From IMG/VR virus record IMGVR_UViG_3300049456_000089, positions 1 through 43,374 of that record: a stretch of DNA of 43,374 nucleotides; one strand, written 5' to 3'. The notes beneath the pieces were generated by a model. It did not search any database, had not been told where the DNA came from, and worked only from the letters and a program-made list of their open reading frames with translations. Positions 47 to 43,374 of this stretch are shown here, piece by piece; the stretch's first letter is position 1, and each line of letters opens with the position of its first letter. Position numbers and translations under genes: made by a program. The stretch is from a virus.

Positions 47-976
47 ATGAACACGACATTCTACGTCATCACGACGATCTTCAACCCGCACGGCTTCAAG
101 TCGCGCGCTCGCCTCTATCGTGATTTCGCGCGCCACATGGAATCTTCCGGCGCCAAGCTCCTGACGGTCGAGGCTGCGTTCGGAGATCACGCCTTCGAAG
201 TGACCGATAAGCTGGACCCCTGGAACGTGCAGCTCCGCACCAACTGCGTCTTCTGGCACAAGGAGAGGCTCATCAACCTCGGTAAAGAGCGCTTGCTGCA
301 GCTCGTCCCCGACGCGCGGAATATCGGCTGGTTTGATGCCGACATCACCTTCGCAAATCCTAATTGGGTAGCCGAGTCCGTGCGCAAGCTGATGCACCAT
401 CCGGTGATCCAGCCGTTCTCGCAGGCCGTCAATCTGGACTCGCGGGAAGAAGTGATGTGGACCTGCCCCTCTTCGTTTCGGGCCTTTATCGAGGGCCGCG
501 GGTACCATCAGGAGCCGCCGATTCCCTTGCCCTATATCTACAAGGGTCACCCCGGCCTGGCGTGGGCGGCGACTCGCGAGGCGCTGGATGCGCTGGGCGG
601 CCTATTCGATCTGTGTCCGGCCGGAAGTGCAGACACCGTGATGTCCAACTGCCTGAAGGGCGGCTGGGATATCTATCTGCCCGCGCCGCCTTCGCCGGGA
701 ATGAGCCAGGCGATCAAGCGATGGGCGGCCCGGTGCGATCGCTACGTCAAAGCAAATGTCGGCTTCACGCGCGGTGTCTGCCTGCACCATTGGCACGGGC
801 CGAGCGAGAAGCGGGGTTACGAGAAGCGCTGGTCGATTCTATCGTTTCACCAGTTCGATCCGCATGAAGACGTTGTTCTCGATAGCAACGGCCTATATCG
901 CTGGGCCGGCAACAAGCCGCGGCTGGAGGACGATATCCGCGTGTCGCTGTCGGCTCGAAACGAGGATGAGATTTGA
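47..976 (+). CDS. Glycosyltransferase-like protein (GT-A fold, DxD)
   Basis: The product is about 309 residues and looks like a nucleotide-sugar-dependent glycosyltransferase. It opens with a beta-strand (YVITTIF) typical of GT-A N-termini and has a DxD-like metal site in IGWFDADITF. The C-terminal half is rich in Trp and His (CLHHWHG). I start at the ATG at 47 because homology-like sequence begins there; a GTG at 8 in the same frame would add 13 unconvincing residues. Its stop overlaps the next gene. It lies just upstream of the HNH/terminase block and is the first of four glycosyltransferase genes in the late region. The acceptor cannot be deduced; virion protein, DNA base or host surface glycan are all possible. 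Confidence 0.7.
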   Translation: MNTTFYVITTIFNPHGFKSRARLYRDFARHMESSGAKLLTVEAAFGDHAFEVTDKLDPWNVQLRTNCVFWHKERLINLGKERLLQLVPDARNIGWFDADITFANPNWVAESVRKLMHHPVIQPFSQAVNLDSREEVMWTCPSSFRAFIEGRGYHQEPPIPLPYIYKGHPGLAWAATREALDALGGLFDLCPAGSADTVMSNCLKGGWDIYLPAPPSPGMSQAIKRWAARCDRYVKANVGFTRGVCLHHWHGPSEKRGYEKRWSILSFHQFDPHEDVVLDSNGLYRWAGNKPRLEDDIRVSLSARNEDEI

Positions 977-5065: not shown

Positions 5066-6388
5066 ATGGGAGCCATTCCAGTACATCACACCGCGGTTGA
5101 TAAAGAGGGCGCGTGGAACGCGGCCGCGAACCTCAAGCGCCTGGGCGATGCGCCGACGGAAGCTGCGCTGCGCGCGATGCATGCCTGGGTGGACTCTGCC
5201 AAGGACGCCAGAACCAGGTCGGCCTATAAGGAACCGCATCACGATGTTACGGAAGCGGGCGAGGTTGGATCCGCCAATATGAAGGGCGTCGAATCCGCCC
5301 TGGGGCGGCTAAATGGCGGAGGCCTCGAGATCCCAGAAGGCGACCGAAAGGCGGTGTATGCGCACCTGGCCGCGCACTACAAGGACGCCGGCATGGACGC
5401 GCCGGAGCTCAAGAGCCGCGCCGCGAAGCACAAGAGCCATCTCCGCATGGAGATCAAGCAGATCGCCGAAGACGGCACGTTCGAGGGCCTGCTTTCTACC
5501 TACGGGAACGTGGATGACGGCGGAGACCTGGTAGAGGCGGGCGCCTTCACCAAGACCATCAAGGAGCATGGAAACGAAGTGCCGCTGCTGTGGCAGCACC
5601 GGCCGGATGTTCCCATCGGGATGCTTACGCTCGAGGACACGGCGGAAGCGCTCAACGTCAAGGGCCGCCTGCTGATGGATCTGCCCGAGGCGCGCAAGGC
5701 CTACCTGCTCATCAAGGCCCGCATCGTAAAGGGGCTGTCCATCGGGTTCGATACCGTCAAGGACGCGGTCGAAAATGGCGTGCGGCGCCTCAAGGAGCTA
5801 CGGCTGTACGAGGGGTCCATCGTGACGTTCCCCATGAATGCCGCGGCCCTGATCACATCGGTCAAAGCAGACGCGGCCGGCAACAATGACTTCGACGAAG
5901 AGCTGAATGAGACGCAGTTTACGGATGCCTTTTATCAGATGATGAGCGCCCTGCGCGCAACGCTGCTGCGCCCTCTTTGGTCCGCCACGAGCGGCGATTT
6001 GACGAAAGAGCAGGCGGTCGAGGCCTCGCGGGCCATCATCGAGCAGTTCCAGGAAACATACATGGCCTATCTGCCGCCCTATCTGGATCTCATCCAGAAG
6101 TGGTACGGCACCAAGGGCCGGCCCGCGCTCGAAACCAAGGAAGGCCGGCGCCACAGCGCGGCCACCAAGGGGCAGATCCAAATGGCCTGCGACCACGTGA
6201 AGAGCGCCATGAAGAGCGCCAATGGCGCCAACGACATTCTGCTTGCACTCCTCGAGGAAGAAGCCGTCGAAGACGACACTTCGGAATCGGGAGCCGCGGC
6301 CGAGGGTAAGTCCAAGTCCGAGCCGGTAAACCACTCGGCGATCAGTGAACAAATTTCTCAATTAAAAGGAGCTTTCAAATGGAACTGA
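5066..6388 (+). CDS. Prohead maturation protease with N- and C-terminal extensions
   Basis: A 440-residue protein with a central HK97-type (peptidase S78) protease that cleaves the scaffold and capsid protein during head maturation. Catalytic candidates are H178 in LLWQHRP and S225 in KGLSIGF, with E249 in RLYEGSIVTFPMN. Residues 1-125 are a separate module (HHDV...RLNGGGLEIP...YAHLAAHY) that I recall at the N-terminus of other phage proteases. Residues beyond about 265 form a helical acidic tail that could act as scaffold. The start at 5066 is preceded by an AGAGGAG ribosome site. The longer ORF from 4739 is an out-of-frame extension into the portal gene. The stop overlaps the capsid gene by 10 nt. 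Confidence 0.92.
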   Translation: MGAIPVHHTAVDKEGAWNAAANLKRLGDAPTEAALRAMHAWVDSAKDARTRSAYKEPHHDVTEAGEVGSANMKGVESALGRLNGGGLEIPEGDRKAVYAHLAAHYKDAGMDAPELKSRAAKHKSHLRMEIKQIAEDGTFEGLLSTYGNVDDGGDLVEAGAFTKTIKEHGNEVPLLWQHRPDVPIGMLTLEDTAEALNVKGRLLMDLPEARKAYLLIKARIVKGLSIGFDTVKDAVENGVRRLKELRLYEGSIVTFPMNAAALITSVKADAAGNNDFDEELNETQFTDAFYQMMSALRATLLRPLWSATSGDLTKEQAVEASRAIIEQFQETYMAYLPPYLDLIQKWYGTKGRPALETKEGRRHSAATKGQIQMACDHVKSAMKSANGANDILLALLEEEAVEDDTSESGAAAEGKSKSEPVNHSAISEQISQLKGAFKWN

Positions 6389-7557
6389 CCCAACAACTGA
6401 CCGAACTGATCTCCGAGCAGAAAACCTTCGTCACTAAGGCGAAGGAAGAGTTCGCGAGCCTCGGTTCGGTCACCCAAGCAACCAAAGAATGTCTGGACAA
6501 ACTCCAGAAGCAAGTGGACGCGCTCGACGTGAAGCTGGCCGACCGGCACGTGGGCGAATCCCAGGAAGAATCGCTCGAGGAAATGCTGCGGAAGGATGAG
6601 GGCGTCACTCGCCTGCTGAAGAGCCGCAGCGGCCACGCGGCCGTAACTATTTCCGGCAAACACGCGCGCAACCTGATCGAGCGCAAGACCACCATCACGA
6701 GTGCGCTCGTCGGGCAGGCCGTGAGTGGTGTCCTGCAGATCGATCGCGTCGCCGGGATCACGGTCGAAGCGCGGCAGGCGCTGCGCATCCGGGATCTGTT
6801 GACCGCGCGACCCACCCTCATGCAGGTCGTCGACTTCGTCAGGGTCAAGCAGGCGCTCTCGCCGGCGTCCCCGGTCGCCGAGGCGAGCTCGAAATTCGAG
6901 AACGCGCTCAACTTTGAGAGCAAGTCGGAAAAAGTGCGGACCATCGCGACGTGGATCCCGGCCACCAAGCAGATCCTGGACGATTTCAGCGAACTGGCGG
7001 GCTTCATCAACACCTCGCTCCCGTATTACGTCAACCTGGAGGAGGAGTTGCAGCTGCTGAGCGGCGATTCGACCGGAGAAAACTTGGACGGCTTGATCGT
7101 GCAGGCCTCGGCGTTCAACACGGCGCTGCTTCATGCGGCGGCGGGCTGGAACAAGATCGATATCGTGGGGCGCACCATCGAGCAGATCACTGCCGCGAAG
7201 GAACTGCAGCCCACCTTCATCGTTCTGCACCCCACCGACTGGTGGGACATCCGTCTGACCAAGGACCAGTTCGGCCGCTATATCCTGGGCGATCCGCAGA
7301 CCAATGTGGCGCCCTCGCTGTTCGGCCTGGATGTGGTCTCGACGACCAGCATCGCCAGCGGCACGTTCCTGGTGGGCTCGGGCAGTCCGATCGCGTCCGA
7401 AATCCGCGACCGCATGGAGATGCAGGTGGAGATCAGTACGGAGCACGCGGACTTCTTCACTAAGAACCTGGTGGCGATCCGCGCCGAGAAGCGCCTGGCG
7501 CTGATCGTCAAGAGGCCGGCGTCCTATATTACCGGGACCTTCACCACCAGCCCGTAG
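6379..7557 (+). CDS. Major capsid protein (HK97 fold)
   Basis: A 392-residue capsid subunit that follows the protease as in HK97-like phages. The N-terminal ~100 residues are charged and helical (a delta-domain-like scaffold), and a cut there would leave a mature ~290-residue subunit. The core has typical motifs: RIRDLLTARPT, KVRTIATWIPATKQILDDF and the VLHPTDWWDIRLTKD loop, then the C-terminal beta segment MQVEISTEHADFF. The best ribosome site in the head block, AAAAGGAG 8 nt before the ATG, fits high expression. A small hairpin follows the stop. Confidence 0.95.
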   Translation: MELTQQLTELISEQKTFVTKAKEEFASLGSVTQATKECLDKLQKQVDALDVKLADRHVGESQEESLEEMLRKDEGVTRLLKSRSGHAAVTISGKHARNLIERKTTITSALVGQAVSGVLQIDRVAGITVEARQALRIRDLLTARPTLMQVVDFVRVKQALSPASPVAEASSKFENALNFESKSEKVRTIATWIPATKQILDDFSELAGFINTSLPYYVNLEEELQLLSGDSTGENLDGLIVQASAFNTALLHAAAGWNKIDIVGRTIEQITAAKELQPTFIVLHPTDWWDIRLTKDQFGRYILGDPQTNVAPSLFGLDVVSTTSIASGTFLVGSGSPIASEIRDRMEMQVEISTEHADFFTKNLVAIRAEKRLALIVKRPASYITGTFTTSP

Positions 7558-7639: not shown

Positions 7640-7990
7640 ATGAGATTAGTCGCAAACCGGCAGCTGACCGGCGAATACGGCACGGTCGTAGACGGCCAAC
7701 AGTTCGACGCGACCGAGGATGCCGCCAGAGTATTGCTCAGCAAGGCGGTCGCTCGCCGCGCCGGTCCGCCGAAGGTTTTATACGAAACCAAGGTTGTCGA
7801 TCCGGAGTCGCGCACGCACGTTCCCGAGGTGAGCCCGCGGCCTCCCTTTCGTGACCTGCCTGTGCCTGACGCGCAACCGCAGAGAGTGGCTTCCGAAGGC
7901 GATCGAGTGCTTTCAGGCGCAGACGTATCCGCACCGCGAAATGTTGATCCTGGCGAGCGGGCACGACGTGCGCGACCTGGCGCCAAATGA
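7640..7990 (+). CDS. Small protein between capsid and connector
   Basis: The frame reads 116 residues. The first ~70 (MRLVANRQLTGEYGTVVDG...) look like a genuine small phage protein, while the last 46 overlap the next glycosyltransferase gene in another frame and are Arg/Pro-rich. Either the gene really has a 140-nt overlap or its coding sequence effectively ends near 7850. The position matches small head-decoration or head-completion proteins, but no family is recognised. No good ribosome site precedes the ATG. Confidence 0.5.
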   Translation: MRLVANRQLTGEYGTVVDGQQFDATEDAARVLLSKAVARRAGPPKVLYETKVVDPESRTHVPEVSPRPPFRDLPVPDAQPQRVASEGDRVLSGADVSAPRNVDPGERARRARPGAK

Positions 7991-8468
7991 CGATCGCTCG
8001 ATCCGGCTGGTACACATCGAAGACGGCCGCAAGATCGGAGAGAATCGCAATTTCGGCTGCGACCGCTCGGCCGGCGAATTTATTGCCATCTGGGATGACG
8101 ACGACTACTCGGCCCCGGGGCGCCTGGAGGACCAAGTCCGGCGTATTGAGGACTCCGGAAAAGCGGTTACCGGCTACCGCACGATGTATTTTACTGACGG
8201 AGTCAGGTGGTGGCTATATCGCGGACGCCCCGGGTTCGCGCTCGGGACATCGCTGCTATTCCGCCGGAGCTGGTGGATCGAGCACCGATTTCTGGACGTG
8301 CAGATCGGCGAGGACAGCGACTTCGTGGAGGCGGCGCGCGCGGAGATTACGGTGACAGACGCCCAATCCCTGATGTTCGCCCGCGTGCACGCGCGCAACA
8401 CCAGCCCTAAGAACACGGGGCAGTGGGGGCAGGTGGCAGAGCCGGGAGTTTTCAAGAGTTTGTTCTGA
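7851..8468 (+). CDS. Family 2-like glycosyltransferase (copy 1)
   Basis: A 205-residue GT-A glycosyltransferase that would move a sugar from a nucleotide donor. It starts with the family's TCLCLTRNR strand and has the metal-binding AIWDDDDYSAPGRL motif (about residues 79-92) and a C-terminal GEDSDFV acidic motif. The start is a GTG at 7851, since a stop at 7830 closes the frame upstream, so it begins inside the preceding ORF. It is clearly homologous to the gene at 9555 (shared DDDD...GRL.DQV, SGK.VTGY and GASLL-type segments). It sits between the capsid and the connector gene, so it is expected to be made with late proteins. Confidence 0.82.
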   Translation: MTCLCLTRNRREWLPKAIECFQAQTYPHREMLILASGHDVRDLAPNDDRSIRLVHIEDGRKIGENRNFGCDRSAGEFIAIWDDDDYSAPGRLEDQVRRIEDSGKAVTGYRTMYFTDGVRWWLYRGRPGFALGTSLLFRRSWWIEHRFLDVQIGEDSDFVEAARAEITVTDAQSLMFARVHARNTSPKNTGQWGQVAEPGVFKSLF

Positions 8469-8469
8469 T

Positions 8470-9171
8470 ATGGGATCCCCTTCTTTTTCAGGCGGCTCGT
8501 CCTTTTACGGACAATACGCGAATCTGGGGCTGTACGGCTCGTTAGTCGCGTACGGAACGCTCAATCTGACCGAGCTCTCGCCGCCCCAGAGTTTCGCAGA
8601 GCCGCTCAGCCGCGGGGACGCGAGGGCGTTCTTGAATCTTCCAGACAGCGAGAGCGACTCTCCTGACCCGCAAGAAGACGACCTGATGGATGCGTTCATT
8701 TCAGCCGCGCGCAACGAAGCGGAAATCGCGCAGGGCCGGGATCTTGTCCTGAAGCAGTGGGACCTTGCGCTGGACTACTGGCCGTCTTTCCGAATCGAGC
8801 TGCGGGCTCCCCTAGTCACTGTCGATCGCGTCGAATATCGCGATTCGAACGGCGATTTTAACCTCATGGCAGAGGGCCCAGATTACATCGTCGACAAGGC
8901 GCGGCAGCCCGGCCTGATCTCACCGCCCTACAATGCGACGTGGCCTGTGTTTGCGCCGTGGCCGACATCGGCGCTCCTGATTCGCTTTACCAGCGGACTG
9001 GCCCCCGGGGCAGCATGGTGGTCCGACACCGGTGGGATCGTCAAGGCCGGAATGAAGTACCTGATCTCGCTGTGGTTCAATAAGCGCCTGCCATTCCAGG
9101 TGGGCTCCTCGGCGAGCGATGCATTTACAACCGGCCTGCTGGCGCACGGCGCGAATCCGAGGGTGAGGTGA
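8470..9171 (+). CDS. Head-tail connector (gp6-like)
   Basis: A 233-residue protein matching the HK97 gp6/connector family that docks under the portal. It has the helical segment DDLMDAFISAARNEAEIAQGRDL, then LDYWPSFRIELRAPLVTVDRVEYRDSNG and the DYIVD loop, and ends in a helical segment (YLISLWFNKR). The first ~45 residues (Gly/Ser/Tyr-rich) are an extension not usual in the family. The ATG is 1 nt after the glycosyltransferase stop. Confidence 0.85.
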   Translation: MGSPSFSGGSSFYGQYANLGLYGSLVAYGTLNLTELSPPQSFAEPLSRGDARAFLNLPDSESDSPDPQEDDLMDAFISAARNEAEIAQGRDLVLKQWDLALDYWPSFRIELRAPLVTVDRVEYRDSNGDFNLMAEGPDYIVDKARQPGLISPPYNATWPVFAPWPTSALLIRFTSGLAPGAAWWSDTGGIVKAGMKYLISLWFNKRLPFQVGSSASDAFTTGLLAHGANPRVR

Positions 9172-9174
9172 AAA

Positions 9175-9552
9175 ATGCCGCAGTCCAGGTTCGTAAGCGT
9201 TGCAAGCGGGGAGCCGGTGATCGACCCGGGCGCGATGCGGCACCGGATCGCCGGGCTGCGGTTTCAGGAAACGATCCCCAGGCAATTCGACGCCGCCGGT
9301 CCGGCGCAAACCTGGGTCGAAGTGGTCCGGGGCCGTGGGGCTATCGAGGCCTATCGCGGCAAAGACGTGATCCAGGCCGGACAGACCACGGCCCAGCTGC
9401 AGTTTGTTATCGCCACCTGGTTTCACCCCGCGTGGTCTTCCGGGATGCGCGTGCAGACGCGTCGAGGCACCTACGTGATCGAGGCGATGTATAACGTGGA
9501 TCTGCGGGATCGGGTTTTAGAGCTGATCTGCGTGCAATTGGGAGACGGCTAG
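9175..9552 (+). CDS. Head closure / head-tail joining protein
   Basis: A 125-residue beta-barrel protein of the SPP1 gp16-like (Phage_H_T_join) type that seals the connector after packaging. Seen are DPGAMRHRI near the N-terminus, QTWVEVVRGRGAIEAY in the middle and YVIEAMYNVDLRDRVLELIC at the end, in the family order. It is 3 nt downstream of the connector gene and 2 nt upstream of the second glycosyltransferase. Confidence 0.82.
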   Translation: MPQSRFVSVASGEPVIDPGAMRHRIAGLRFQETIPRQFDAAGPAQTWVEVVRGRGAIEAYRGKDVIQAGQTTAQLQFVIATWFHPAWSSGMRVQTRRGTYVIEAMYNVDLRDRVLELICVQLGDG

Positions 9553-9554
9553 CG

Positions 9555-10157
9555 GTGATCTCCCTTATCATGCCTACCCGCGGCCGGCCACAGTTTGCGG
9601 AGCTTGCGCTGCTATGCTTCCTCGCCCAGGACTGGAGCGAGAAGGAACTGATCATCCTGGACGATGCGGATTTTCCAAGTTTCGCGAAAGTCCCCGACGC
9701 GCCTCAGGTCCACTACCACCGAACGAAGGAAAAGATGCCAGTAGGAGTGAAGCGCAACCGATGCTGCGAGCTTGCCAAGGGCGACCTGATCGCCCACCTG
9801 GACGACGACGACTTCAGCACCACCGGCCGGCTCGCGGACCAGGTTCACCGGCTCGAGCAGAGCGGGAAATCTGTGACCGGCTATCACTCGATGCGGTTTA
9901 AGGACGGTGAGCGCTGGATTCAGTACCTTGGATCCCCGGCCACGGCGCTTGGAGCCTCGCTCCTCTACCTGCGCGAATGGTGGGCGTGCCATCCCTTCGC
10001 CCCGATCGATCGCGGGGAGGATGGGCAGTTTGTCCGCGAGGCCTTCGACGCCGGGCAGCTGGTCGTTTCGGACGCCGGCGAGATGATGTACGCCACGATC
10101 CATCCGCTCAATACCAGTCCTCGCGATACAAAGGACAACAATTGGAGAGCGCTGTAA
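9555..10157 (+). CDS. Family 2-like glycosyltransferase (copy 2)
   Basis: A 200-residue GT-A glycosyltransferase with the SLIMPTRGRP nucleotide-binding strand, the donor/metal motif AHLDDDDFSTTGRL and the acidic GEDGQFV segment. It is a paralogue of the 7851 gene. The start is GTG, 2 nt after the preceding stop. Its stop (TAA) shares one base with the ATG of the methyltransferase gene, so the two are probably translated together. The recipient of the sugar is unknown. Confidence 0.82.
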   Translation: MISLIMPTRGRPQFAELALLCFLAQDWSEKELIILDDADFPSFAKVPDAPQVHYHRTKEKMPVGVKRNRCCELAKGDLIAHLDDDDFSTTGRLADQVHRLEQSGKSVTGYHSMRFKDGERWIQYLGSPATALGASLLYLREWWACHPFAPIDRGEDGQFVREAFDAGQLVVSDAGEMMYATIHPLNTSPRDTKDNNWRAL

Positions 10158-10786
10158 TGATCGACTCCGCGGTTGAGCGCCGCCGCCCAGCTTGGCACCT
10201 ACAGTGGTCCGAGGACATCAACATCACGCCCTGGCTCATCCCTGGCGGGGCTCTTGATGTGGAGCGTTGCCCGGCGTGTTGGGAGCTGCGGGCCCACTAT
10301 GAGCGCTACCTGTTCGCCAGCCAGGCGCTTTCCGGGATGCGTGTCCTCGACTTCGGCTGTGGGGTGGGCTACGGTGCCTGGCTGCTTGCGGAGGCGGGGA
10401 ACCAGGTCGTCGGTTACGACCAATCCATGCCGGCCATAAAGCGGGCTCAAGCCAGCGGGATCCGCGAGAATCCGGCTTTTACGCATGAGCGCTGCGAATG
10501 GGATCCCTTCGATGCCTGTGTGGCGTTCGAGGTGATCGAGCACCTGGAATTCCCGGAAGCTTTTATTCATACGGTCCAGGCGCGGCACCTGATCGCTTCG
10601 GTGCCGGTCGAGCCGACGCTAGGACACAATCCCAACCATCGGCACGATTTTACGGTCGAGAGCTTCCGGGAACTGATCGAGCGCCGGTTCCGGATCAAGT
10701 GGTGGTGGACCCAGACGCGGCCGTTCCGGCATGAGCCCGCCTACGCGATTTTTCACGGAGAGCTTTTCACTGAAAGAGAGCAATGA
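10157..10786 (+). CDS. SAM-dependent methyltransferase (class I)
   Basis: A 209-residue Rossmann-fold methyltransferase. Motif I is VLDFGCGVGYGAWLL (about residues 56-70), followed by the acidic strand end VVGYDQS and a motif IV-like ACVAFEVIEHLE. N-terminal CPACWE could bind a metal. The ATG at 10157 was chosen because of the TAATG junction and an upstream GGAG at 10144-10147; an in-frame ORF from 9977 is an extension into the previous gene. Flanked by glycosyltransferases with 1- and 4-nt overlaps, it probably methylates a sugar or glycan rather than DNA; there is no DNA methylase DPPY/NPPY motif. Confidence 0.82.
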   Translation: MIDSAVERRRPAWHLQWSEDINITPWLIPGGALDVERCPACWELRAHYERYLFASQALSGMRVLDFGCGVGYGAWLLAEAGNQVVGYDQSMPAIKRAQASGIRENPAFTHERCEWDPFDACVAFEVIEHLEFPEAFIHTVQARHLIASVPVEPTLGHNPNHRHDFTVESFRELIERRFRIKWWWTQTRPFRHEPAYAIFHGELFTEREQ

Positions 10787-12180
10787 AGCCCCTCGCGATC
10801 ATTCCCGCCTTCAATGAGGACGACATCCTCGGCGCTGTGGTGTTGCATCTGAAGACCGAGGGCTGTGACGTCCACGTGATCGACAACTGGTCGACGGACA
10901 ATACCGTTGCTGTAGCAAGGCAAGCCGGCGCCATGGTCGAGACCTGGCCGTCCGAGGCCCCCGGTTTCTACGACTGGACCGGGTTGTTAAAACGGATCGA
11001 GGAGATCGCCGCGGCGCACCCCGGCCGCTGGATCATCTTTCACGACGCGGATGAAATTCGCACGGCCCCTGCGCAGCTCGCCGGCGCTGATCTCGCCCTC
11101 GGCCTTTATATCGCCCAGAACCATGGCGCGAATGCGGTTGAGTTTCACGTCCGGACGTTTACTCCGGTCGAGGAAGGCTGGAGCGCTGGCCGCGATCCGC
11201 AGGCTTACTTCCAGTATCTAGTTCCGCAGCACATCGATTCCCGCATCGCGCACGTTAAGGCCTGGATCCAACCTGAGGCCCGGGTCGATCTGCGCACGCA
11301 CGGTGGCCACCAGGTACTGTTTGATAATCGCAAGATATACGGCCTGCCGTTCCTGTTGAAGCACTACCCGATCCGGTCCCAGGCCCATGGCGAAAAGAAA
11401 GTTCTTCAAGAACGACGTCCGAGGTACAATCCCGAGGAGCGCGCTAAGCAGTGGCATGTGCAGTACGACTGCTATGGAAGTTCGCCCAGGTTTGTAGGCG
11501 ACCCGGCCGAGCTCTACCGCGACCGTCCGGTTACGATCCTGACCCTGACCCGCTTCCCGGAGATCTTCGCCCGCCTGGCTGACTCTGTCGATCGCTGGGA
11601 ACCCACGCGCCGGCGCATTGTGGTCACCAGCGGCGGCGCGGCAATCGAGCGCCAAGGCTGGCTTGTGATTCGCGGGATCGAGCCCTTCGTCTTCGGCCGC
11701 AACGCCAATCTAGGCATCGCCGCCGCCGGGGGAGACGACGACATTCTCTTGGTCAACGACGATGTGGAATTTACCGAGCCAATCATTGACGAGCTCGGGT
11801 GGGCTGCGGACCAAGGCGCGGGGCTCATCACCCCCCAGGTCATTGGCGACGGCATCAACCACCCCATGGCGTACGCCTCGCGGCCACTGTCAGTCCGGAG
11901 TGCTTTCACGAGCTCCTACCTGCCGTTTGTGTGCGTGCTTCTCCGCCGGCAGACGATCGCGCAATGCGGTGCCCTGGCGGAACGCTTCACGGGCTACGGT
12001 AGCGAGGACGTCGAATTCTGCGGCCGCGCGCAGGCGCGTGGTTTTCGAATGGCGGTTTCACGCGCCCGGGTGAAGCACGGCTTTGGGGAGCATCGTTATT
12101 CTTCGTCGTTCCTGCGAGTGATGACCTCCGCCCAGCGAGAGCAATCCATGCGTGAAATGGGAGCCTTGGTCAAGGAATGA
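10783..12180 (+). CDS. Two-domain glycosyltransferase
   Basis: A 465-residue protein with two GT-A-like domains in tandem. Domain 1 (about 1-235) opens with LAIIPAFNEDDILGAV and has VIDNWSTDNT and the metal motif IIFHDADEI. Domain 2 (about 250-465) has ILTLTRFPEIFARL, ILLVNDDVEF and the galactosyltransferase-like end GYGSEDVEFCGRAQARGF. Both domains keep their acidic motifs, so two successive transfers are possible. It starts in an ATGA overlap with the methyltransferase and ends in an ATGA overlap with the tail-completion gene, so it is locked into the late operon. Confidence 0.82.
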   Translation: MKPLAIIPAFNEDDILGAVVLHLKTEGCDVHVIDNWSTDNTVAVARQAGAMVETWPSEAPGFYDWTGLLKRIEEIAAAHPGRWIIFHDADEIRTAPAQLAGADLALGLYIAQNHGANAVEFHVRTFTPVEEGWSAGRDPQAYFQYLVPQHIDSRIAHVKAWIQPEARVDLRTHGGHQVLFDNRKIYGLPFLLKHYPIRSQAHGEKKVLQERRPRYNPEERAKQWHVQYDCYGSSPRFVGDPAELYRDRPVTILTLTRFPEIFARLADSVDRWEPTRRRIVVTSGGAAIERQGWLVIRGIEPFVFGRNANLGIAAAGGDDDILLVNDDVEFTEPIIDELGWAADQGAGLITPQVIGDGINHPMAYASRPLSVRSAFTSSYLPFVCVLLRRQTIAQCGALAERFTGYGSEDVEFCGRAQARGFRMAVSRARVKHGFGEHRYSSSFLRVMTSAQREQSMREMGALVKE

Positions 12181-12578
12181 TCTCGGACGGCATCGCTCGG
12201 CTGCAATCCGTTCCGGCCGTGAAGGCCATCGCGAAAGTCGGCGGAGGCTTCGCGACTGACCTGCCGAAGGGCCATGACCTGCCAAGCTGGACCTATGCGC
12301 TGCGCGACACAGCGTCCGTACAGACCTCTGGCCGCCAGGAGCCGCTTACGGAAGGCTGGCTCGAGATCGATTGCTACGGCACATCGGCGTCCGATGCAGA
12401 GTTATTGCGTGAGGCTATCGACGCGGCTCTCCGGGCGACTGCGGGCGGCCGGCTTCAGGATGCGGATGCGACTCCGCTACTGATGTACGAGTCCGCCTTT
12501 GTCAGTCCCGATTTGGATGACGCCTCGCGCACTTATCGCCGAAAGATCAGGGCCCACATCTGGTTCCGGAGGAACTGA
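12177..12578 (+). CDS. Tail completion protein (DUF3168-like)
   Basis: A 133-residue protein fitting the DUF3168/gp17-type tail terminator family that stops tail-tube growth and joins the head. Family cues are a short N-terminal helix, LPKGHDLPSWTYALRD, GWLEIDCYGTSASDAELLREAI and the closing beta segment RTYRRKIRAHIWF. It is coupled by ATGA to the two-domain glycosyltransferase. Confidence 0.75.
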   Translation: MISDGIARLQSVPAVKAIAKVGGGFATDLPKGHDLPSWTYALRDTASVQTSGRQEPLTEGWLEIDCYGTSASDAELLREAIDAALRATAGGRLQDADATPLLMYESAFVSPDLDDASRTYRRKIRAHIWFRRN

Positions 12579-12580
12579 CC

Positions 12581-13024
12581 ATGGCGCGATCCGCAATCAC
12601 CACCGGCCAGCTCTCAAAATTCGACGGGATGCAGGAAGCCCTCGCGAATGTCGCAAATATTCTGGACCGGACCACGGCGGAGCGGCTCAAGGACAGCGTG
12701 TTCATGCCCGCCGGCGAGGTGGTGCAGCGCAACCTCAAGGCCGCTGCGCCGTACGATTCGATGCACGCCACCCAGCACAAAGCGTACCCCGCCTGGCCGC
12801 ATCTGCGGGATTCCGTGTTTCTCTCTGGCGGAAAGCCCAGCGCGCCGAACGTAATTGTGGGGGTGAACGCCCGCCGTGCTCCGCAAGGGTTTTGGCGCGA
12901 GTTTGGCACCAAGCATCAGCCGGCAGACCCCTGGTTTTATCCGGCGGTTCGCGCCAGCCGTGAAGCAGTCGCGCAAGTTTTGATCGACGGAATCGACCAG
13001 GCGATCCAGTCTTCTCTGAAGTAG
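12581..13024 (+). CDS. HK97 gp10-family tail protein
   Basis: A 147-residue head-tail/tail completion protein of the HK97 gp10 family. The conserved C-terminal block is visible as APQGFWREFGTKHQPADPWFYPAV, preceded by a helical half with LKDSVFMPAGEVVQRNLKAAAP. The position between the DUF3168-like gene and the tail tube is normal for the family. Confidence 0.85.
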   Translation: MARSAITTGQLSKFDGMQEALANVANILDRTTAERLKDSVFMPAGEVVQRNLKAAAPYDSMHATQHKAYPAWPHLRDSVFLSGGKPSAPNVIVGVNARRAPQGFWREFGTKHQPADPWFYPAVRASREAVAQVLIDGIDQAIQSSLK

Positions 13025-18442: not shown

Positions 18443-19165
18443 ATGGACGAAACAGCAAAACTGACCACGGGTAGCGAGCCGGCCCGGCGTCTTGCCGCTG
18501 AGGCGCTTCGGGAGGTCCGCGAGCTCGATCGGCTCGGATTTCCACTGTTTGAAAACATACCGGATCCGCCATGCCGCCTCCCTGGTGAGCCGCTCGGTGT
18601 GGCAATTGCCCGTGATATGGGGTTCGCGGATATTGATTCTGCGCGGCTCGCCCTCACGGCTGCCGCGGTAATCGATGGGGGCCTTTTACCCTCCGCTCGA
18701 GACGATGACCCCGCGGCACACTTTAGGTTTTGGGCCGGGCTTCTCATAGAGTCCGAGCGTCACGCCGCCGGAGAGGAAAGCTTTCTCCACCGGCGGAAAA
18801 GCCCCGGTGACAGGCCTGGAATATTTCCAGGTATGACCACGGGTACCGAGGATGCCCGGCGTCTTGCCGCTGAGGCCCTTCGGGAGGTCCGCGAGCTCGA
18901 TCGGCTCGGATTTCCACTGCTGGGCAAGATTGAAAACGGACTCATGCCGGGGCCACCCGGCCGCCGGCCCGGTGAGTTCCTCATCGCGGCAATTGCGCGT
19001 GATATGGGCTTCGCGGATACTACCCAGCTCGCGCTCGCAGCCGGCGCGCTGATCAATGAGGGAGTTTTATCAACCAGTGAAGCCGGCGACCCGGCGACGC
19101 ACTTTAGGTGTTGGGCCACGCTTCTTATAGAGTCCGAGCGTCACGCACTGACGGACGATGCGTAA
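18443..19165 (+). CDS. Tandemly duplicated small tail-region protein
   Basis: A 240-residue product made of two copies of one ~120-residue unit. Each begins TTG(S/T)E.ARRLAAEALREV and continues with RELDRLGFPL, AIARDMGFAD, a hydrophobic AL.AAA/ALI helix and LLIESERHA. The DNA repeat has a period of 372 nt (124 codons), so the frame is kept. Copies are nearly identical in the 64 nt after the start of each unit and more diverged later. The unit is helical and Glu/Arg/Leu-rich; I do not recognise a family. The position after the tape measure suggests a tail or baseplate role. Confidence 0.65.
   Translation: MDETAKLTTGSEPARRLAAEALREVRELDRLGFPLFENIPDPPCRLPGEPLGVAIARDMGFADIDSARLALTAAAVIDGGLLPSARDDDPAAHFRFWAGLLIESERHAAGEESFLHRRKSPGDRPGIFPGMTTGTEDARRLAAEALREVRELDRLGFPLLGKIENGLMPGPPGRRPGEFLIAAIARDMGFADTTQLALAAGALINEGVLSTSEAGDPATHFRCWATLLIESERHALTDDA
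18464..19165 (+). repeat. 372-nt in-frame tandem duplication
   Basis: Unit 1 spans 18464-18835 and unit 2 starts at 18836 and ends with the gene. Both start with ACCACGGGTA. The segment after GCCCGGCGTCTTGCCGCTGA shows a single difference over about 64 nt, then identity declines and small indels appear. This pattern suggests a fairly recent duplication or local gene conversion of the 5' part. Confidence 0.85.
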
Positions 19166-23504: not shown

Positions 23505-25055
23505 ATGAAGATTTGGTCCATCGTTCTCTTTTGCGCCCTTTCTCTGCCGCCCCTGCTTGCTCAGGGCTGGCAGGATCTGCCCAACACCAAGATGTCTGCG
23601 GTCTGCACCTACCCTGGAAGCTACAACTGCGCTGCCGTAGTTGCGTCATGGAGCGGCGGCATTGCCGACACCACGCGGAACCGCCTGATTGTTCACGGCG
23701 GCGGACACGGGGACTCTTCGGACAACGCCGTCTATGCGCTGAGCCTCACCGGAACTCCAGGATGGAGCCGCATCGTGAATGCGGGGCCTCCGAATCCGAA
23801 CTACAACACGAGCTGCCCGATCTCGGTCGACGGCAGCACTCCCAACTCGAGCCACACCTACGACGGGCTTTCCTACGATTTCCTCCACGATCTGATGATC
23901 ATGTTGCACGGGCCCGTGAATTGCAGCAACGGCACTCACTACGGCGATCTGTGGAGCCTGAACCTTGGAACACTGCAGTGGCTGCGGCTAGATCCAGTGA
24001 ACGGCGCGCTGGGGCATCAGCCCAAGGACTATTACACGCCGGTTCCGATGACGAACTCGTTTGACCCCAACACGGGCCTCTCGTTTATCAGCACGACCGC
24101 CGAGCTGTGGTCTTACAACGCCTCAACGAACACGTACGTACTGCTGAACCAGTCTCTTTCCGTTCCGTACACTTCGGTTTCGGTGATCGATCCCGTTCGA
24201 AAGCTTCTCATTTTTATCGGTTCGCAAGGCCCCGGGGTTCAATATGGAATCGCGGGTGCGAACAGCCCAGGAATCGCAGTAGTCAACCTGGCGCCAGGGA
24301 GCAACTACCTGGCGACGAACTGGAGCAATCTCGTGAGCGGTTGCGCGATCCCGTTCGGCTCCGCCTTCCCTGGAGTGGCTTATCACAATCCGAGCGGTAC
24401 CATTATGATCTGGCCGAACTTCGGCGGCACGGTCTATCAGTTCGATCCGGGCACGAAGATTTGTACGCCGCTGGTGTTCAGCGGAGGACCTCCGGATTCG
24501 AAGGACTATAACGGCGCGTCCTACTCCAGCGGAACTTCCGGGCGCTTTCAATACTTCCCGCCCCTTGATGCGTTTGTGGTGGTCAACAGCGTGTTCAATG
24601 ATGCGTTCATGCTCACGCTTGGCCCCGCACCACCGCCGCCGGCGCCGATCATCACGAGCACGCTCACCGCGCCGGCGACCGTGGGCACCGCGTTCAGCTA
24701 CAGCGTTACGGCCTCGAACATGCCGACCAGCTACGGAGCGAGCAGTCTTCCCCCGGGCCTTTCGGTCAACACGAACACTGGAGTGATCTCGGGAACTCCG
24801 ACCGTGAGCAATCTCTTCAACGTCTCGATCTCGGCTACAAACGCCGGCGGAACGGGAAGCGCGACCTTGGCCCTGACGGTCAACCCTCAGCCCCCCGTCC
24901 CTTTCGATCTCAATGGCGATCGCGTGGTGGACGCCCTGGACGTCCAGATAGCGATCGATCAGATGCAGCCGGGGGCCTGCGCAAATGCTGATGTGAACGG
25001 CGACGGAGTTTGCGACGTCAGGGATGTAATTCTGGTAGCAAAGGCGACCCGGTGA
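23505..25055 (+). CDS. Secreted Kelch-like propeller with Ig and dockerin domains
   Basis: A 516-residue exported protein. Residues 1-20 are a Sec signal peptide (MKIWSIVLFCALSLPPLLAQ). Residues ~22-375 look like a Kelch/galactose-oxidase-type propeller (LIVHGGGHGDSSDNAVYAL, GDLWSLNLGTLQWLRL). After a Pro-rich linker comes an Ig-like He_PIG domain (~382-463: PATVGTAFSYSV, LPPGLSVNTNTGVISGTP). The C-terminus (466-516) has two EF-hand-like loops, DLNGDRVVDALD and DVNGDGVCDVRD, as in type I dockerins. Galactose oxidase copper ligands were not identified. It could be a cargo (moron) gene acting at the host surface. Confidence 0.7.
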   Translation: MKIWSIVLFCALSLPPLLAQGWQDLPNTKMSAVCTYPGSYNCAAVVASWSGGIADTTRNRLIVHGGGHGDSSDNAVYALSLTGTPGWSRIVNAGPPNPNYNTSCPISVDGSTPNSSHTYDGLSYDFLHDLMIMLHGPVNCSNGTHYGDLWSLNLGTLQWLRLDPVNGALGHQPKDYYTPVPMTNSFDPNTGLSFISTTAELWSYNASTNTYVLLNQSLSVPYTSVSVIDPVRKLLIFIGSQGPGVQYGIAGANSPGIAVVNLAPGSNYLATNWSNLVSGCAIPFGSAFPGVAYHNPSGTIMIWPNFGGTVYQFDPGTKICTPLVFSGGPPDSKDYNGASYSSGTSGRFQYFPPLDAFVVVNSVFNDAFMLTLGPAPPPPAPIITSTLTAPATVGTAFSYSVTASNMPTSYGASSLPPGLSVNTNTGVISGTPTVSNLFNVSISATNAGGTGSATLALTVNPQPPVPFDLNGDRVVDALDVQIAIDQMQPGACANADVNGDGVCDVRDVILVAKATR

Positions 25056-29259: not shown

Positions 29260-29280
29260 GTGAAGAAGAAAGAGGAGTAT

Positions 29281-29901
29281 ATGAAAAAGTTATTGTTGTT
29301 TCTTTTGCCGGTGTTCGGGTTGGCCCAGACACTTGCGCCATCCGTGTCGCCTTCGAGTGTCAGGGCCGGACAGACGACGACCGTTACTCACACCCTCACG
29401 CCATCAGCCACCGCGCCAGTCTCCGCTGTGCAGTCGAATACGGCGGGCCTGCCTACTGCGGCATTCGCAGCATGGACGGCGGGAGCTGCTACAACCGCAG
29501 CCGGCAAAACTACTTCTGGGCAGCAGTCAGCCGAACTCACGGCGGGAACGAGCGCGGCCAGCGCAACGACCGCTTTAGGCGCCGGCCCGGTGGCATCCTC
29601 CGTTGTGACCGTACCCGCGAACACTCCCCCCGGGATAGTCACCATCAGCGTCGCGGGAGCGCTGGGAGCGAGCCCGACCGGGCAACCCGTCGTAATCACG
29701 GCCGGCCCTGCGGCAGTGCTCACGGTTCTGGACCCAAAAGACGTAAACGGGGATGGAAAGGTGGACGCGTCGGACCTGGCCATCGTTAAGCTACAGGCTC
29801 TCGGTGTCTATTTTGGTCAAGCGTGCACTATCGGAGACGTGAACGGCGACGGCCAATGCGATATCACCGATGTGCAGCTGGTAGCGAAGGCAATCCCGTA
29901 A
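29281..29901 (+). CDS. Secreted dockerin-domain protein
   Basis: A 206-residue exported protein: signal peptide MKKLLLFLLPVFGLAQ, a beta-rich Thr/Ala-rich middle that resembles a cohesin-like or Ig-like adhesion fold (SPSSVRAGQTTTVTHTL), and a C-terminal dockerin-like EF-hand pair with DVNGDGKVDASD and DVNGDGQCDITD. Two Cys flank the second loop as in the 23505 protein. The ATG at 29281 has GAGGAG just upstream; a GTG at 29260 is less likely. Cohesin-dockerin style attachment between this and the 23505 protein is conceivable but unproven. Confidence 0.65.
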   Translation: MKKLLLFLLPVFGLAQTLAPSVSPSSVRAGQTTTVTHTLTPSATAPVSAVQSNTAGLPTAAFAAWTAGAATTAAGKTTSGQQSAELTAGTSAASATTALGAGPVASSVVTVPANTPPGIVTISVAGALGASPTGQPVVITAGPAAVLTVLDPKDVNGDGKVDASDLAIVKLQALGVYFGQACTIGDVNGDGQCDITDVQLVAKAIP

Positions 29902-37352: not shown

Positions 37353-38495
37353 ATGGGCAAGACGTCGATCGAGTGGACCGATCACAGCATCAACCCGTTC
37401 CGCGCGCGGAATCGCGACACGGGACAGGTGGGGCACTTCTGCGTGAAGATCTCTCCGGGATGCAAGTATTGCTACAGCTCGCGACTTCAATCACGCTTCG
37501 GCACATTTCCATTCGTCGTCGAGAATCGCGACAAGGTCGAATTGTTCCTCGACGAATCCAAACTCCAGGACGTCCTTCGGCGAAAGATCCCCACGAAATA
37601 CTTCTGGTGCGACATGACCGACATGTTTCTGGAAGACTATCCGGACGAATGGATCGACCCCTGTTTCGCCACCATGGCGTTGACGCCCTGGCACACGCAC
37701 CAGGTCCTCACGAAGCGAGCGGCCCGGATGCAGAAGTATTTTGCAGACCTACATCGCCTAGGAAGTGATCGCGTGATGGCTATACGCACAAAGACGCCGG
37801 ATTACATCGCGTTCGTTCAGGACAAAGCGAGTCCAATCCACTTCCCGTTACCCAACACGTGGCTGGGCGTGTCGGTCGAAGACCAGCAGCGCGCCGATGA
37901 GCGGATCCCATTGCTCCTGCAGACGCCGGCTGCCGTAAGATTCGTGAGTTACGAGCCTGCGCTCGGCCCGGTGGACTTCACGCGACTGTATGGAAAGATT
38001 ACGTGGCGAACGGGACCGGAACCGGGAGACGCCTGGGTCGATTTATGCGTGGACTCCCTGGGCGGAAAGTGCACCGCGGCATGGTGCGGAAGGAAATCAA
38101 TACCAGACCGGCCGCTTCCCGCTCATCTCGACTGGGTCATCGCCGGCGGCGAGAGCGGTCCTGAAGCCAGGGCCGCCCACTCCGATTGGATCAGGGGGGT
38201 TCGCGATCAGTGCGTGGCCGCCAGGGTTCCGTTCTTCTTTAAACAATGGGGACAATGGGCGCGCTGGAGCCCGAATCTGCCTGCAGGAGACGTTATCCAC
38301 GTGGCTACAGATGGGGCCTACGGAGAATCTGCCTCGTCGGCCGGCTATGTTCGCCGTGGCGGCAGCATTGTCTCTGACTCTACGACCGAGCCCCTGGTGC
38401 CGATCGGTAAGAAGGCCGCCGGCCGCCTGCTCGATGGCCGCGAATGGAGTGAGTTTCCAAAGCAAGCTTGGGTTGGCGGGGAGCTACGGCAGTGA
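37353..38495 (+). CDS. Phage Gp37/Gp68 family protein (DUF5131)
   Basis: A 380-residue protein of the Gp37/Gp68 family. Family features: KTSIEWTDHSINPF at the start, then CVKISPGCKYCYSSRLQSRF with three clustered Cys suggestive of a radical-SAM-like iron-sulfur site, WCDMTDMFLEDYPDEW, WLGVSVEDQQRADERIPLLL, WVIAGGESGPEARAAHSDWI and VPFFFKQWGQW. The biochemical role is not established to my knowledge. Family members are frequent in temperate phages of diverse bacteria. It is the last plus-strand gene before the terminator. Confidence 0.88.
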   Translation: MGKTSIEWTDHSINPFRARNRDTGQVGHFCVKISPGCKYCYSSRLQSRFGTFPFVVENRDKVELFLDESKLQDVLRRKIPTKYFWCDMTDMFLEDYPDEWIDPCFATMALTPWHTHQVLTKRAARMQKYFADLHRLGSDRVMAIRTKTPDYIAFVQDKASPIHFPLPNTWLGVSVEDQQRADERIPLLLQTPAAVRFVSYEPALGPVDFTRLYGKITWRTGPEPGDAWVDLCVDSLGGKCTAAWCGRKSIPDRPLPAHLDWVIAGGESGPEARAAHSDWIRGVRDQCVAARVPFFFKQWGQWARWSPNLPAGDVIHVATDGAYGESASSAGYVRRGGSIVSDSTTEPLVPIGKKAAGRLLDGREWSEFPKQAWVGGELRQ

Positions 38496-38964: not shown

Positions 38965-39429
38965 ATGAAGGCGATCAGCCTGACCCAGCCCTGGGCTTCT
39001 TTAGTCGCCATCGGCGCCAAGCGCATCGAGACGCGCGCCTGGTCGACTTCCTACCGCGGGCCGATGGCAATCCATGCGGCAAAAAGCTTCCCTCGATTCG
39101 CGAAGGATCTCTGTTTGAGCCGGCCGTTCTTTGCCGCGCTCGGCTGGCCTTCCGCACTCGAACCACTCACCCAGGCCTGGCTCGATGACAACTTTCAACG
39201 TACCAAGGACCTTCCCCTTGGCTGCGTGCTCGCGACCGCCAGGCTGGCGGATTGTCTTCCGACTGTTCTGATTCCGAAAGTTGTCCGGCCGTTTACGGAG
39301 CGGGAAAAGACGTTCGGAAATTACGAGCCCGGCCGGCATGGATTTCTCCTCGAAGATGTGGTCCAGCTCGCCGCGCCGATTCCGGCGAAAGGCGCGCTGG
39401 GGTTGTGGGATTGGGAGCCGTCCCAATGA
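38965..39429 (+). CDS. ASCH domain protein
   Basis: A 154-residue ASCH-fold protein, a PUA-related domain implicated in RNA binding or modified-nucleoside hydrolysis. Signature segments: KAISLTQPWASLVAIGAKRI, ETRAWSTSYRGPMAIHAAK, LGCVLATARLAD and the C-terminal TFGNYEPGRHGFLLEDV with GALGLWDWE. A ribosome site GAGGGG precedes the ATG. It ends in an ATGA overlap with the excisionase-like gene. Confidence 0.88.
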   Translation: MKAISLTQPWASLVAIGAKRIETRAWSTSYRGPMAIHAAKSFPRFAKDLCLSRPFFAALGWPSALEPLTQAWLDDNFQRTKDLPLGCVLATARLADCLPTVLIPKVVRPFTEREKTFGNYEPGRHGFLLEDVVQLAAPIPAKGALGLWDWEPSQ

Positions 39430-39653
39430 GCCGACCACTGGATGGAAACCCAAGGATCAGCATCGAGGAAATCGTGGGGCGCCTCCAAATCGGAAAGAAG
39501 GCTGTCTATGCACTGCTCCACCAGAAGGAGATTCCATCCATCCGGATCGGGCGCAAGTGGATCATCTCGCGCGGGGCCTACGAGCAATGGGAGCGAACCT
39601 TCGGAAGCCGGGATCAATCCGTGGGCGATCGTGCGGCGGGGGCGATCCGATGA
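39426..39653 (+). CDS. xis: Excisionase-like helix-turn-helix protein
   Basis: A 75-residue MerR/excisionase-type winged HTH: RISIEEIVGRLQIGKKAVYA then LLHQKEIPSIRIGRKWIIS, the classic helix-helix-wing order of DNA-binding excisionase-family proteins. It starts by ATGA overlap with the ASCH gene and overlaps the frame of the integrase, so it probably controls excision. The longer ORF from 39252 is spurious. Confidence 0.8.
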   Translation: MSRPLDGNPRISIEEIVGRLQIGKKAVYALLHQKEIPSIRIGRKWIISRGAYEQWERTFGSRDQSVGDRAAGAIR

Positions 39654-39700
39654 ACTTGAAACCTGCTAGGCTGTTTCTCCAACAGGAGGAACGGAACAAT

Positions 39701-40930
39701 ATGGCGCGCCGGAGGTTCCAACGCACCGGGAGGCTGTTTAAGGAAGGCAATTGGTGGCGGCTGCAGTATTACGAGCATGGCGATCCGGGAATGAAGCCGC
39801 GGAAGCGCAACGAAGCCTTGGGCCTTTGCCGGGGCGCCGAAGCGATCCCTGAAAAAGAAGCCAGGCGCCGCGCGGCCGAGAAACTCCGCGAAGCGAACCT
39901 GGCCGCGATCGCGCCGGGGTCGACTATGCTGCTGCGCAATTTCATCGAGCGCCATTTTCAGCCGGAGCATGTGGCCACGCTCAAGCGCGGCGGGCAAACC
40001 CACTACCGCGTCAACCTGGCGCCTCTGCTCGCCGCATATGGCGATTGGGCACTTCGCGACATCCGGCAAGAGCACATCCAAAAGCTTTGCCTGGGCCTGC
40101 TCGCCCGAACGTACACGTGCGGGAAGGGCGACAGGGCGCATCAGATTCCCTATAGCGTGCAGTCTGCCCTGCATCTGAAAAACGCGGCCAGCCGGGTATT
40201 TGAACACGCCAAGGATTTAGGGACCTACCCTGGTGAGAATCCAGCGCGCCGCGTGCGGCTGCCGGAGATGAAACGCAAGGAGAGCCACACGCTGAGCGCC
40301 GACCAGGTGCAGCGTCTCCTGGCCGCCTTGCCCGAGCCGAGCCGCGCGATCGCGGAGCTCGCAGTCCTGACGTCGATGAACATCGCGGAGATTTGCGGGC
40401 TGAAGTGGGGCGACGTGAATCTGACCCCGCGGTGGCTGATCTCTGAAGGCGAGCCCATTCCTCCGCGCGCGATCGCGGTTCGACGCCAGTTCCGGGAGGG
40501 TGAATACGGGACGCTGAAAAAACCCAGCCGCGCGATTGGATCTTCCCGGCGGAGAGACCTGCCGATCGATGGCGCACTCGCTAAGCTGCTCCGGTCGCTG
40601 AAGCCCGGACCGCCGGACCGACCCGTTTTCCACTCGCGAACCGGAACGCCGGTAGATGGGCACAATGTATTCAATCGCCAGTTGAAGCCGGCGGCGCGCC
40701 GGCTGGGGATGCCCTGGCTCGGCTGGCACACCTTCCGGCACACGCACGCGACTCTGCTGCGGCAGGCGGGCGCCGCGCCGGCCGATCAGATGGCCATGAT
40801 GGGCCACGCGGGGCTGCGGATGACGATGAGCTACGGGGAGCAGGACCTCGATCGCCGGCGCCTGGCGGTCAGCCGGATTGCCGGGAAGATCGCGGCGCGA
40901 GCGCCAAGGAAAGCGAGGGCGAGGGCTTGA
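39701..40930 (+). CDS. int: Tyrosine recombinase (phage integrase), Arg I replaced
   Basis: A 409-residue integrase that recombines attP with a tRNA gene. The N-terminal ~100 residues are arm-binding-like with basic segments; residues ~75-190 are the core-binding SAM-like domain. In the catalytic domain: K283/K284, H343-R346 in GWHTFRHTHA, H369 in MMGHAGL and Y378 in TMSYGEQD. The first catalytic Arg is N227 in LTSMNIAEICGLKW. I start at ATG 39701 because AGGAGGA lies at 39684-39690; ATG 39650 overlaps the xis stop and is an alternative. Confidence 0.9.
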   Translation: MARRRFQRTGRLFKEGNWWRLQYYEHGDPGMKPRKRNEALGLCRGAEAIPEKEARRRAAEKLREANLAAIAPGSTMLLRNFIERHFQPEHVATLKRGGQTHYRVNLAPLLAAYGDWALRDIRQEHIQKLCLGLLARTYTCGKGDRAHQIPYSVQSALHLKNAASRVFEHAKDLGTYPGENPARRVRLPEMKRKESHTLSADQVQRLLAALPEPSRAIAELAVLTSMNIAEICGLKWGDVNLTPRWLISEGEPIPPRAIAVRRQFREGEYGTLKKPSRAIGSSRRRDLPIDGALAKLLRSLKPGPPDRPVFHSRTGTPVDGHNVFNRQLKPAARRLGMPWLGWHTFRHTHATLLRQAGAAPADQMAMMGHAGLRMTMSYGEQDLDRRRLAVSRIAGKIAARAPRKARARA

Positions 40931-42871: not shown

Positions 42872-43374
42872 ATGGTTGCGAAGATCACCCAGCTTACGCC
42901 TGGGCAGGAGAGCCGCCTGCGCGAGGTCTACGCCGAGTGGCTCGCGGTGGGCAGATCGTGCGAGCCACTCGACCGCGCCGAGGCGACCGCGATCGTCGGA
43001 GAATTCTACGCGCGCATCGGGAAGCCGCGCCCGCCGGTTCTTTTCTTCAGCTCGCCGCTGATTTGTATTCTAGCCTATGGTGCCCTGAGCGCGGCCGGCG
43101 TTGAGCCGGCCGCGCGAAATTTGCGGGGCCAGCTTTGGGGCCAGCTTTGGGGCCAGCTTTGGGGCCAGCTTCGGGGCCAGCTTTCGGACCAGCTTCGGGG
43201 CCAGCTTTCGGACCAGCTTTCGGACCAGCTTCGGGACCAGCTTTCGGACCAGCTTTGGGGCCAGCTTCGGGGCCAGCTTTGGGGCCAGCTTCGGGGCCAG
43301 CTTTCGGGCCAGCTTTCGGACCAGCTTTCGGACCAGCTTTCGGACCAGCTTTCGGACCAGCTTTGGGACCAGCT
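42872..43374 (+). CDS. DUF6745-like protein with GQLW-type repeats (partial)
   Basis: The reading frame is open to the window end (167 codons, truncated). The N-terminal ~85 residues (ITQLTPGQESRLREVYAEWL, CEPLDRAEATAIVGEFYARI, PRPPVLFFSSPLICILAYGA) resemble the start of DUF6745 proteins, which also carry internal short Gln-rich repeats. From residue 86 it becomes a perfect tetrapeptide repeat (G/D)QL(W/R/S). The start at 42872 lies 3 nt after the 42868 stop. The function is unknown; a repeat array of this kind could be a protein-binding or helical surface. Confidence 0.6.
   Translation, partial: MVAKITQLTPGQESRLREVYAEWLAVGRSCEPLDRAEATAIVGEFYARIGKPRPPVLFFSSPLICILAYGALSAAGVEPAARNLRGQLWGQLWGQLWGQLRGQLSDQLRGQLSDQLSDQLRDQLSDQLWGQLRGQLWGQLRGQLSGQLSDQLSDQLSDQLSDQLWDQ
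43127..43374 (+). repeat. 12-bp tandem repeat array, about 21 units, continues past window
   Basis: Each unit is G(G/A)C CAG CTT (TGG, CGG or TCG), coding (G/D)QL(W/R/S). CAG and CTT never vary in any copy, while the two variable codons differ only by single bases that change the amino acid. The array runs without interruption from 43127 to the last base. Confidence 0.95.

Follow-up and report, generated by a model that had tools for sequence, protein, structure and literature searches.

Glycosyltransferase genes among the head and tail genes of a siphophage group: a putative virion-glycosylation module with a variable gene island

Why are genes for sugar-transferring enzymes found among those that build the head and tail of a phage? 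The question is raised by a soil-type virus of Acidobacteriota recorded in IMG/VR (IMGVR_UViG_3300049456_000089, 43,374 bases; "the window" denotes this whole stretch). The window belongs to an HK97-type siphophage in which every late gene is on the + strand and TerL, portal, protease, major capsid protein (MCP), MTP and TMP are recognizable. Its late operon harbors three glycosyltransferase (GT) genes, referred to as GT1, GT2 and GT3, and a methyltransferase gene, MT (Table 1). The best explanation, to which we assign a probability of roughly 0.6, is a phage-encoded virion-glycosylation module, i.e., a variable island of sugar genes around a core GT, produced late together with the head and tail proteins.

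The order in the late operon is MCP, GT1, connector (adaptor), Hc1, GT2, MT, GT3 and tail terminator. The GT2/MT junction reads TAATG, the MT/GT3 and GT3/terminator junctions read ATGA, and GT1 and the adaptor are 1 nucleotide (nt) apart. An earlier note on this DNA had claimed that the genes starting at 7851, 9555, 10157 and 10783 are placed between structural genes and joined to them by such overlaps; the neighbors are indeed recognized by PHROG and Pfam, and the overlaps are read in the sequence at the three junctions given. No transmembrane-like stretch was found in the GTs or the MT of the window. Together with the slot census described below, these observations bear out a set of co-oriented, overlapping, soluble sugar-transfer enzymes tied to head-tail slots.

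The GT1-family alignment was used as a query against viral contigs and GTDB genomes, so that most loci were retrieved by GT sequence, independently of any structural gene. The family, which includes GT2, was found at 80 loci in viral contigs (about 80 distinct contigs). Of its 89 domains, 52 are located between the MCP and the adaptor, 10 after the adaptor and 18 between Hc1 and the terminator, with the remaining 9 near contig ends or at a position that could not be resolved. Homologous phages thus keep these genes in the same slots, a check that the earlier note had proposed. On a tree of the family, the label for slot A (MCP/small gene to adaptor) changes 8 times, compared to 28.6 in shuffles, and 0/500 shuffles were as low; many nodes of this tree are weakly supported, and kinship alone adds to slot clustering. 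The window's GT1 groups with slot-A copies and its GT2 with slot-B/C copies (adaptor-Hc1/Hc1-terminator), so that the two represent two old, slot-associated lineages. A recent local duplication giving GT1 and GT2 was considered and rejected on the basis of these separate lineages.

In GTDB the family was found at five loci, i.e., four in three Acidobacteriota metagenome-assembled genomes (one of them "Candidatus Sulfopaludibacter") and one distant locus in Armatimonadetes. Among 396 Acidobacteriota genomes, only the known Sulfopaludibacter locus scores at the level of the phage genes; the other matches are much weaker, and most of them belong to long frames with several domains. In hosts, the closest relatives of GT1 are open frames of 560-920 residues in Acidobacteriota (L180, L181, L185 and L186), and such host frames are a possible source of the phage family. 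Near the prophage in the Sulfopaludibacter contig (L204) are open reading frames (ORFs) of 1754, 970 and 1499 amino acids, which on visual inspection look like a defence locus of the DISARM or BREX type.

The sugar genes around the core GT vary widely. The MCP-adaptor gap spans 79 to 7,632 bases (median 1,600) and the Hc1-terminator gap 1 to 7,345 bases. Beyond GT1 and the split halves of GT3, these islands hold 87 ORFs, of which 15 have methyltransferase matches, five are DegT/StrS sugar aminotransferases (best E 1.9e-78), four are MUCI70-like GTs, three are PIG-L deacetylases and three are FkbM methyltransferases; GT9, GT4 and GNAT enzymes are found as well. Some relatives carry the core gene alone, and the set of sugar genes differs in each phage. 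The window's MT and two-domain GT3 recur side by side in one relative (L108) in the other slot, as expected of a cassette, and in two others (L129 and L130) GT1 and the C-terminal half of GT3 are fused in one protein. In dozens of related viruses, the core GT is bound to a few head-tail slots while the other sugar genes are swapped. No description of slot-bound sugar-gene islands was found in the literature, within what could be searched, and this variable architecture around a core GT appears to be new. Among single island members, matches to the TIR, collagen repeat and YdjC families were also seen, and two members match B12-binding and radical SAM families.

A sample that was not chosen for GTs, composed of terminase relatives with enough downstream sequence, indicates that the GT1 module is restricted to one group of phages. 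GT1 was found in 5/7 terminase relatives at an identity of at least 51% (a shorter one, L011, has GT1 too) and in 0/40 below 51%; the Fisher value for GT1 versus terminase nearness is 1e-5, which ignores shared ancestry. Similarly, PF00535 was found in 6/7 of the nearest terminase relatives tested and in none of the others.

GT1, GT2 and GT3 all score above the curated PF00535 cut-off of 23.3 bits. GT1 has a GTG start, a DDD metal motif and a C-terminal His, and the DDD and H180 are invariant in the GT1 alignment (8 relatives). In GT3, a DAD motif is found in the N-terminal half, and NDD and ED motifs in the C-terminal half, which is hardly seen by Pfam. An AlphaFold2 model of GT3 (30-sequence alignment; mean pLDDT 89.4) displays two domains, and in the structure search suggested in the earlier note, here run on GT3 with Foldseek, the best matches included the dual GT-A polymerases heparosan synthase 2 (E 2e-12) and K4 chondroitin polymerase (E 2e-10) as well as LARGE1, polypeptide GalNAc-transferase 2 and SunS. 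Because of these matches, the C-terminal half is most likely a GT-A domain as well. The whole-chain TM-scores are low, and therefore the model supports the domain folds of GT3 and not their arrangement. The Pasteurella and E. coli polymerases carry two GT-A domains per chain, as does GT3; the identity to GT3 is ~12%, and the likeness does not imply polymerase activity. In most relatives the GT3 halves are encoded as two separate genes. The MT, described in the earlier note as a class I methyltransferase, matches Methyltransf_23 over its curated cut-off and is possibly a sugar O-methyltransferase.

The earlier note had counted four GT genes with five GT-A domains. GT1, GT2 and GT3 account for four secure domains, from Pfam and the GT3 model; the gene at 47-976 (GT0) is a probable GT. 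It has no Pfam, PHROG or NCBIfam match, and an AlphaFold2 model from three sequences (pLDDT 47) was too poor for use. Its DAD and HxWHG motifs are common to relatives in other phages, 5/10 members of its family weakly touch Glycos_transf_2 (best E 0.012), and the family profile matches ceramide glucosyltransferase at E 0.0037. The assignment of this gene to the set among the head-tail genes is not supported: the gene precedes those for packaging, members of its family are seen in unrelated phages, and the island loci yielded no relative.

Phage GTs are described as glycosylating the virions of the mycobacteriophages Che8, Corndog and Myrna (Freeman et al. 2023, as cited in PMC12363180, PMC11600133 and PMC12619734), and the glycans are attached near the C-terminal ends of the capsid and tail-tube proteins (PMC12619734, PMC12363180). 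Because of this location, the MCP tails were inspected. The HK97-type MCPs of phages with GT1 mostly end in G[TS]F-x-[TS]SP, and a [ST]SP ending was found in 36/43 MCPs of such phages with a readable tail, in 0/3 relatives without GT1 and in 0/16 isolate phages. The tail is kept in MCPs that are 38-48% identical to that of the window, with S-P at 90%, compared to a body mean of 71%. This feature indirectly supports the capsid as the target. Ser/Thr enrichment was also tried as a general target signal and was rejected: MCP and adaptor, unlike the portal, are richer in phages with GT1, which is confounded with ancestry.

As in mycobacteriophages, phage-encoded GTs would here modify virion proteins, and cluster O mycobacteriophages have three tandem GTs beside an O-methyltransferase, like the GT/MT set of the window. 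The Acidobacteriota phages differ in having a core GT tied to head-tail slots and sugar genes that are exchanged around it. No sequence homology to the mycobacteriophage virion GTs (Che8 gp110, Corndog gp38) was found: GT1 and the C-terminal half of GT3 had no tblastn match at E 1e-5 among 50,697 records of isolate phages, which include mycobacteriophages. GT2 matched two short records only, and megablast revealed no close relative of the window among isolates. The relation to the mycobacteriophage systems would thus be one of function. Another parallel, in logic alone, is the chlorovirus PBCV-1, where A064R is a GT-GT-methyltransferase in capsid glycosylation (PMC9614988). The capsid glycan of this virus is the product of its own soluble enzymes, which act in the cytoplasm, and the chain end is built and capped by a GT-A domain, another GT and a methyltransferase. 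PBCV-1 differs in being an algal giant virus with N-glycans and early genes scattered in the genome.

According to the proposed mechanism, a glycan-assembly module would be made alongside the head and tail proteins in late infection of an Acidobacteriota host, and the soluble GT-A enzymes would draw on host nucleotide sugars in the cytoplasm. The GT1-family enzyme would probably initiate or lengthen a glycan chain on one of the virion proteins; the MCP is the most likely acceptor, possibly through its C-terminal Ser/Thr tail. GT3 would add further sugars with its two active-site domains, and the methyltransferase would modify or cap the chain. Because the cassette differs among relatives, each phage would make its own type of glycan. 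The enzyme families, the operon layout, the kept slots, the variable islands and the restriction to one phage group are observed; we infer the late timing, the virion as target, the tail as acceptor, the order of the steps and the chemistry.

Several points weigh against this interpretation. No isolate phage has GT1 at the tblastn sensitivity used. The link between MCP tail and GT1 was drawn post hoc and is confounded by common ancestry, the ending of HK97's own MCP reads GTFSSGS, and four phages (L102, L126, L137 and L161) have GT1 and an MCP without such a tail. Phages with GT1 solely in later slots have other MCP types that lack the Ser/Thr tail, and therefore the acceptor cannot be identical everywhere.

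An alternative is that the enzymes alter the lipopolysaccharide or exopolysaccharide of the host, thereby excluding superinfecting phages or helping progeny release, in a manner similar to seroconversion. Like the carriers of Gtr seroconversion cassettes, the window phage with its GTs is probably temperate, as indicated by an integrase at 39281-40930; its enzymes weakly resemble the surface-polysaccharide GTs WcaA, TuaG and EpsE, and GtrB-like O-antigen conversion genes have been reported in other Acidobacteriota viral operational taxonomic units (PMC11924767). However, a GtrA flippase was found in none of the 21 records composed of the window and 20 relatives (the control matched), no transporter or polymerase family is among the most frequent island families, the enzymes carry no membrane segments, as opposed to the membrane GT of Gtr cassettes, and the genes are located inside the late head-tail operon, not beside lysogeny genes. 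We consider host-surface modification unlikely. The sugar genes could also be horizontally acquired cargo ("morons") that the structural operon tolerates in its gaps and that does nothing for the virion. This would account for the strong variation in island content and size (about 0.1 to 7.6 kb) and for relatives that hold only the core gene, but not easily for a core gene that is kept to a few slots in about 80 phages as slot-associated lineages, shares overlapping start and stop codons with structural genes and retains its catalytic motifs; we rate this explanation slightly lower again.

Base modification is the best-known role of phage GTs, and diverse GTs hypermodify viral DNA (Pyle 2024, as cited in PMC12619734), so that the enzymes could glycosylate modified bases of the phage genome as a protection against restriction. 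A thymidylate-synthase-type base hydroxymethylase (PF00303) was, however, found in 0/20 relatives, with a matching control, and the placement of sugar aminotransferases and deacetylases among head genes would be atypical for such systems. Tet/JBP was found in 0/21 records, a result of little weight as its control was silent. We judge DNA hypermodification very improbable. Both DNA bases and host lipopolysaccharide had been named beforehand as alternative targets that would refute the virion proposal; neither gained support from the PF00303 and GtrA searches, and both are less likely than virion glycosylation.

The small conserved gene upstream of GT1 overlaps it by ~140 nt, and many of 48 loci show an overlap of 140-143 nt; a conserved K-R-N of GT1 could perhaps create the stop codon of the small gene in the other frame and so explain this length. 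Elsewhere in the window, a DUF5131 (Gp37/Gp68-like) protein is encoded at 37353-38495. Two proteins (23505-25055 and 29260-29901) have signal-peptide-like starts and dockerin type I domains at their ends, which is unusual in a phage; the former contains a Kelch-like region and an Ig domain as well, and the latter is Ser/Thr/Ala-rich. The protein at 18443-19165 is composed of one domain twice (RRLAAEALREVRELDRLGFPL...IARDMGFAD) and has no PHROG match. The window end (42872-43374) lies inside a gene of tandem QLSDQL/QLWGQL repeats, where the contig probably breaks, and the genome may be incomplete.

Table 1. Sugar-enzyme genes and neighboring features of the window.
Feature	Position	Strand	Match or note
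GT0, probable GT-A-like protein, DAD and HxWHG motifs	47..976	+	weak PF00535 and GT21 similarity of its family
MCP, HK97-type major capsid protein, candidate acceptor	6379..7557	+	phrog_10 E 6e-53; ~36% identity to HK97 gp5
MCP C-terminal tail YITGTFTTSP, candidate O-glycosylation site	7525..7554	+	
Small conserved gene between MCP and GT1	7640..7990	+	found in 57 loci
GT1, GT-A family 2 glycosyltransferase, slot-A copy	7851..8468	+	Pfam PF00535 Glycos_transf_2 E 6e-17, 62.5 bits
Head-tail adaptor, between GT1 and GT2 positions	8470..9171	+	phrog_442 E 5e-6
Head closure Hc1/head completion protein	9175..9552	+	PF05521 E 5e-13; phrog_25
GT2, same family as GT1, slot-B/C-lineage copy (Hc1 to tail terminator)	9555..10157	+	PF00535 E 1e-13, 52.1 bits
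MT, class I S-adenosylmethionine-dependent methyltransferase	10157..10786	+	Methyltransf_23 E 3e-13, 50.2 bits (cut-off 27)
GT3, 465 residues, two GT-A domains (C-terminal one most likely)	10783..12180	+	PF00535 E 8e-8, 32.8 bits, N-terminal half
Tail terminator, start overlaps GT3 end (ATGA)	12177..12578	+	phrog_123 E 5e-4
Neck1/tail completion protein	12581..13024	+	phrog_5 E 2e-12

Virion glycosylation has so far been demonstrated in a few mycobacteriophages, and Acidobacteriota proviruses, including a Bryobacterales group, have been described with scattered GT annotations (PMC11924767). The anatomy described here predicts virion glycosylation in dozens of uncultivated phages whose hosts belong to a phylum abundant in soil, with a clear core enzyme, a predicted acceptor (the MCP C-terminus) and natural variation in the remaining enzymes. 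A further suggestion, which we put forward tentatively and with less confidence than the module itself, is that the capsid-glycan loci of this siphophage group of Acidobacteriota are organized in the manner of bacterial loci for O-antigen or capsule: a slot-bound core transferase would act on the MCP Ser/Thr tail, and an exchangeable island of aminotransferases, deacetylases, methyltransferases and GTs would provide every phage with a virion glycan "serotype" of its own. The finding also calls for caution, as genes of GT family 2 in soil viral contigs should not be counted as auxiliary metabolic genes of carbon utilization. If the prediction is true, these phages would provide a source of virion-directed glycosyltransferases and a natural series in which to study the role of phage glycans in soil, e.g., in adsorption, stability and protection.

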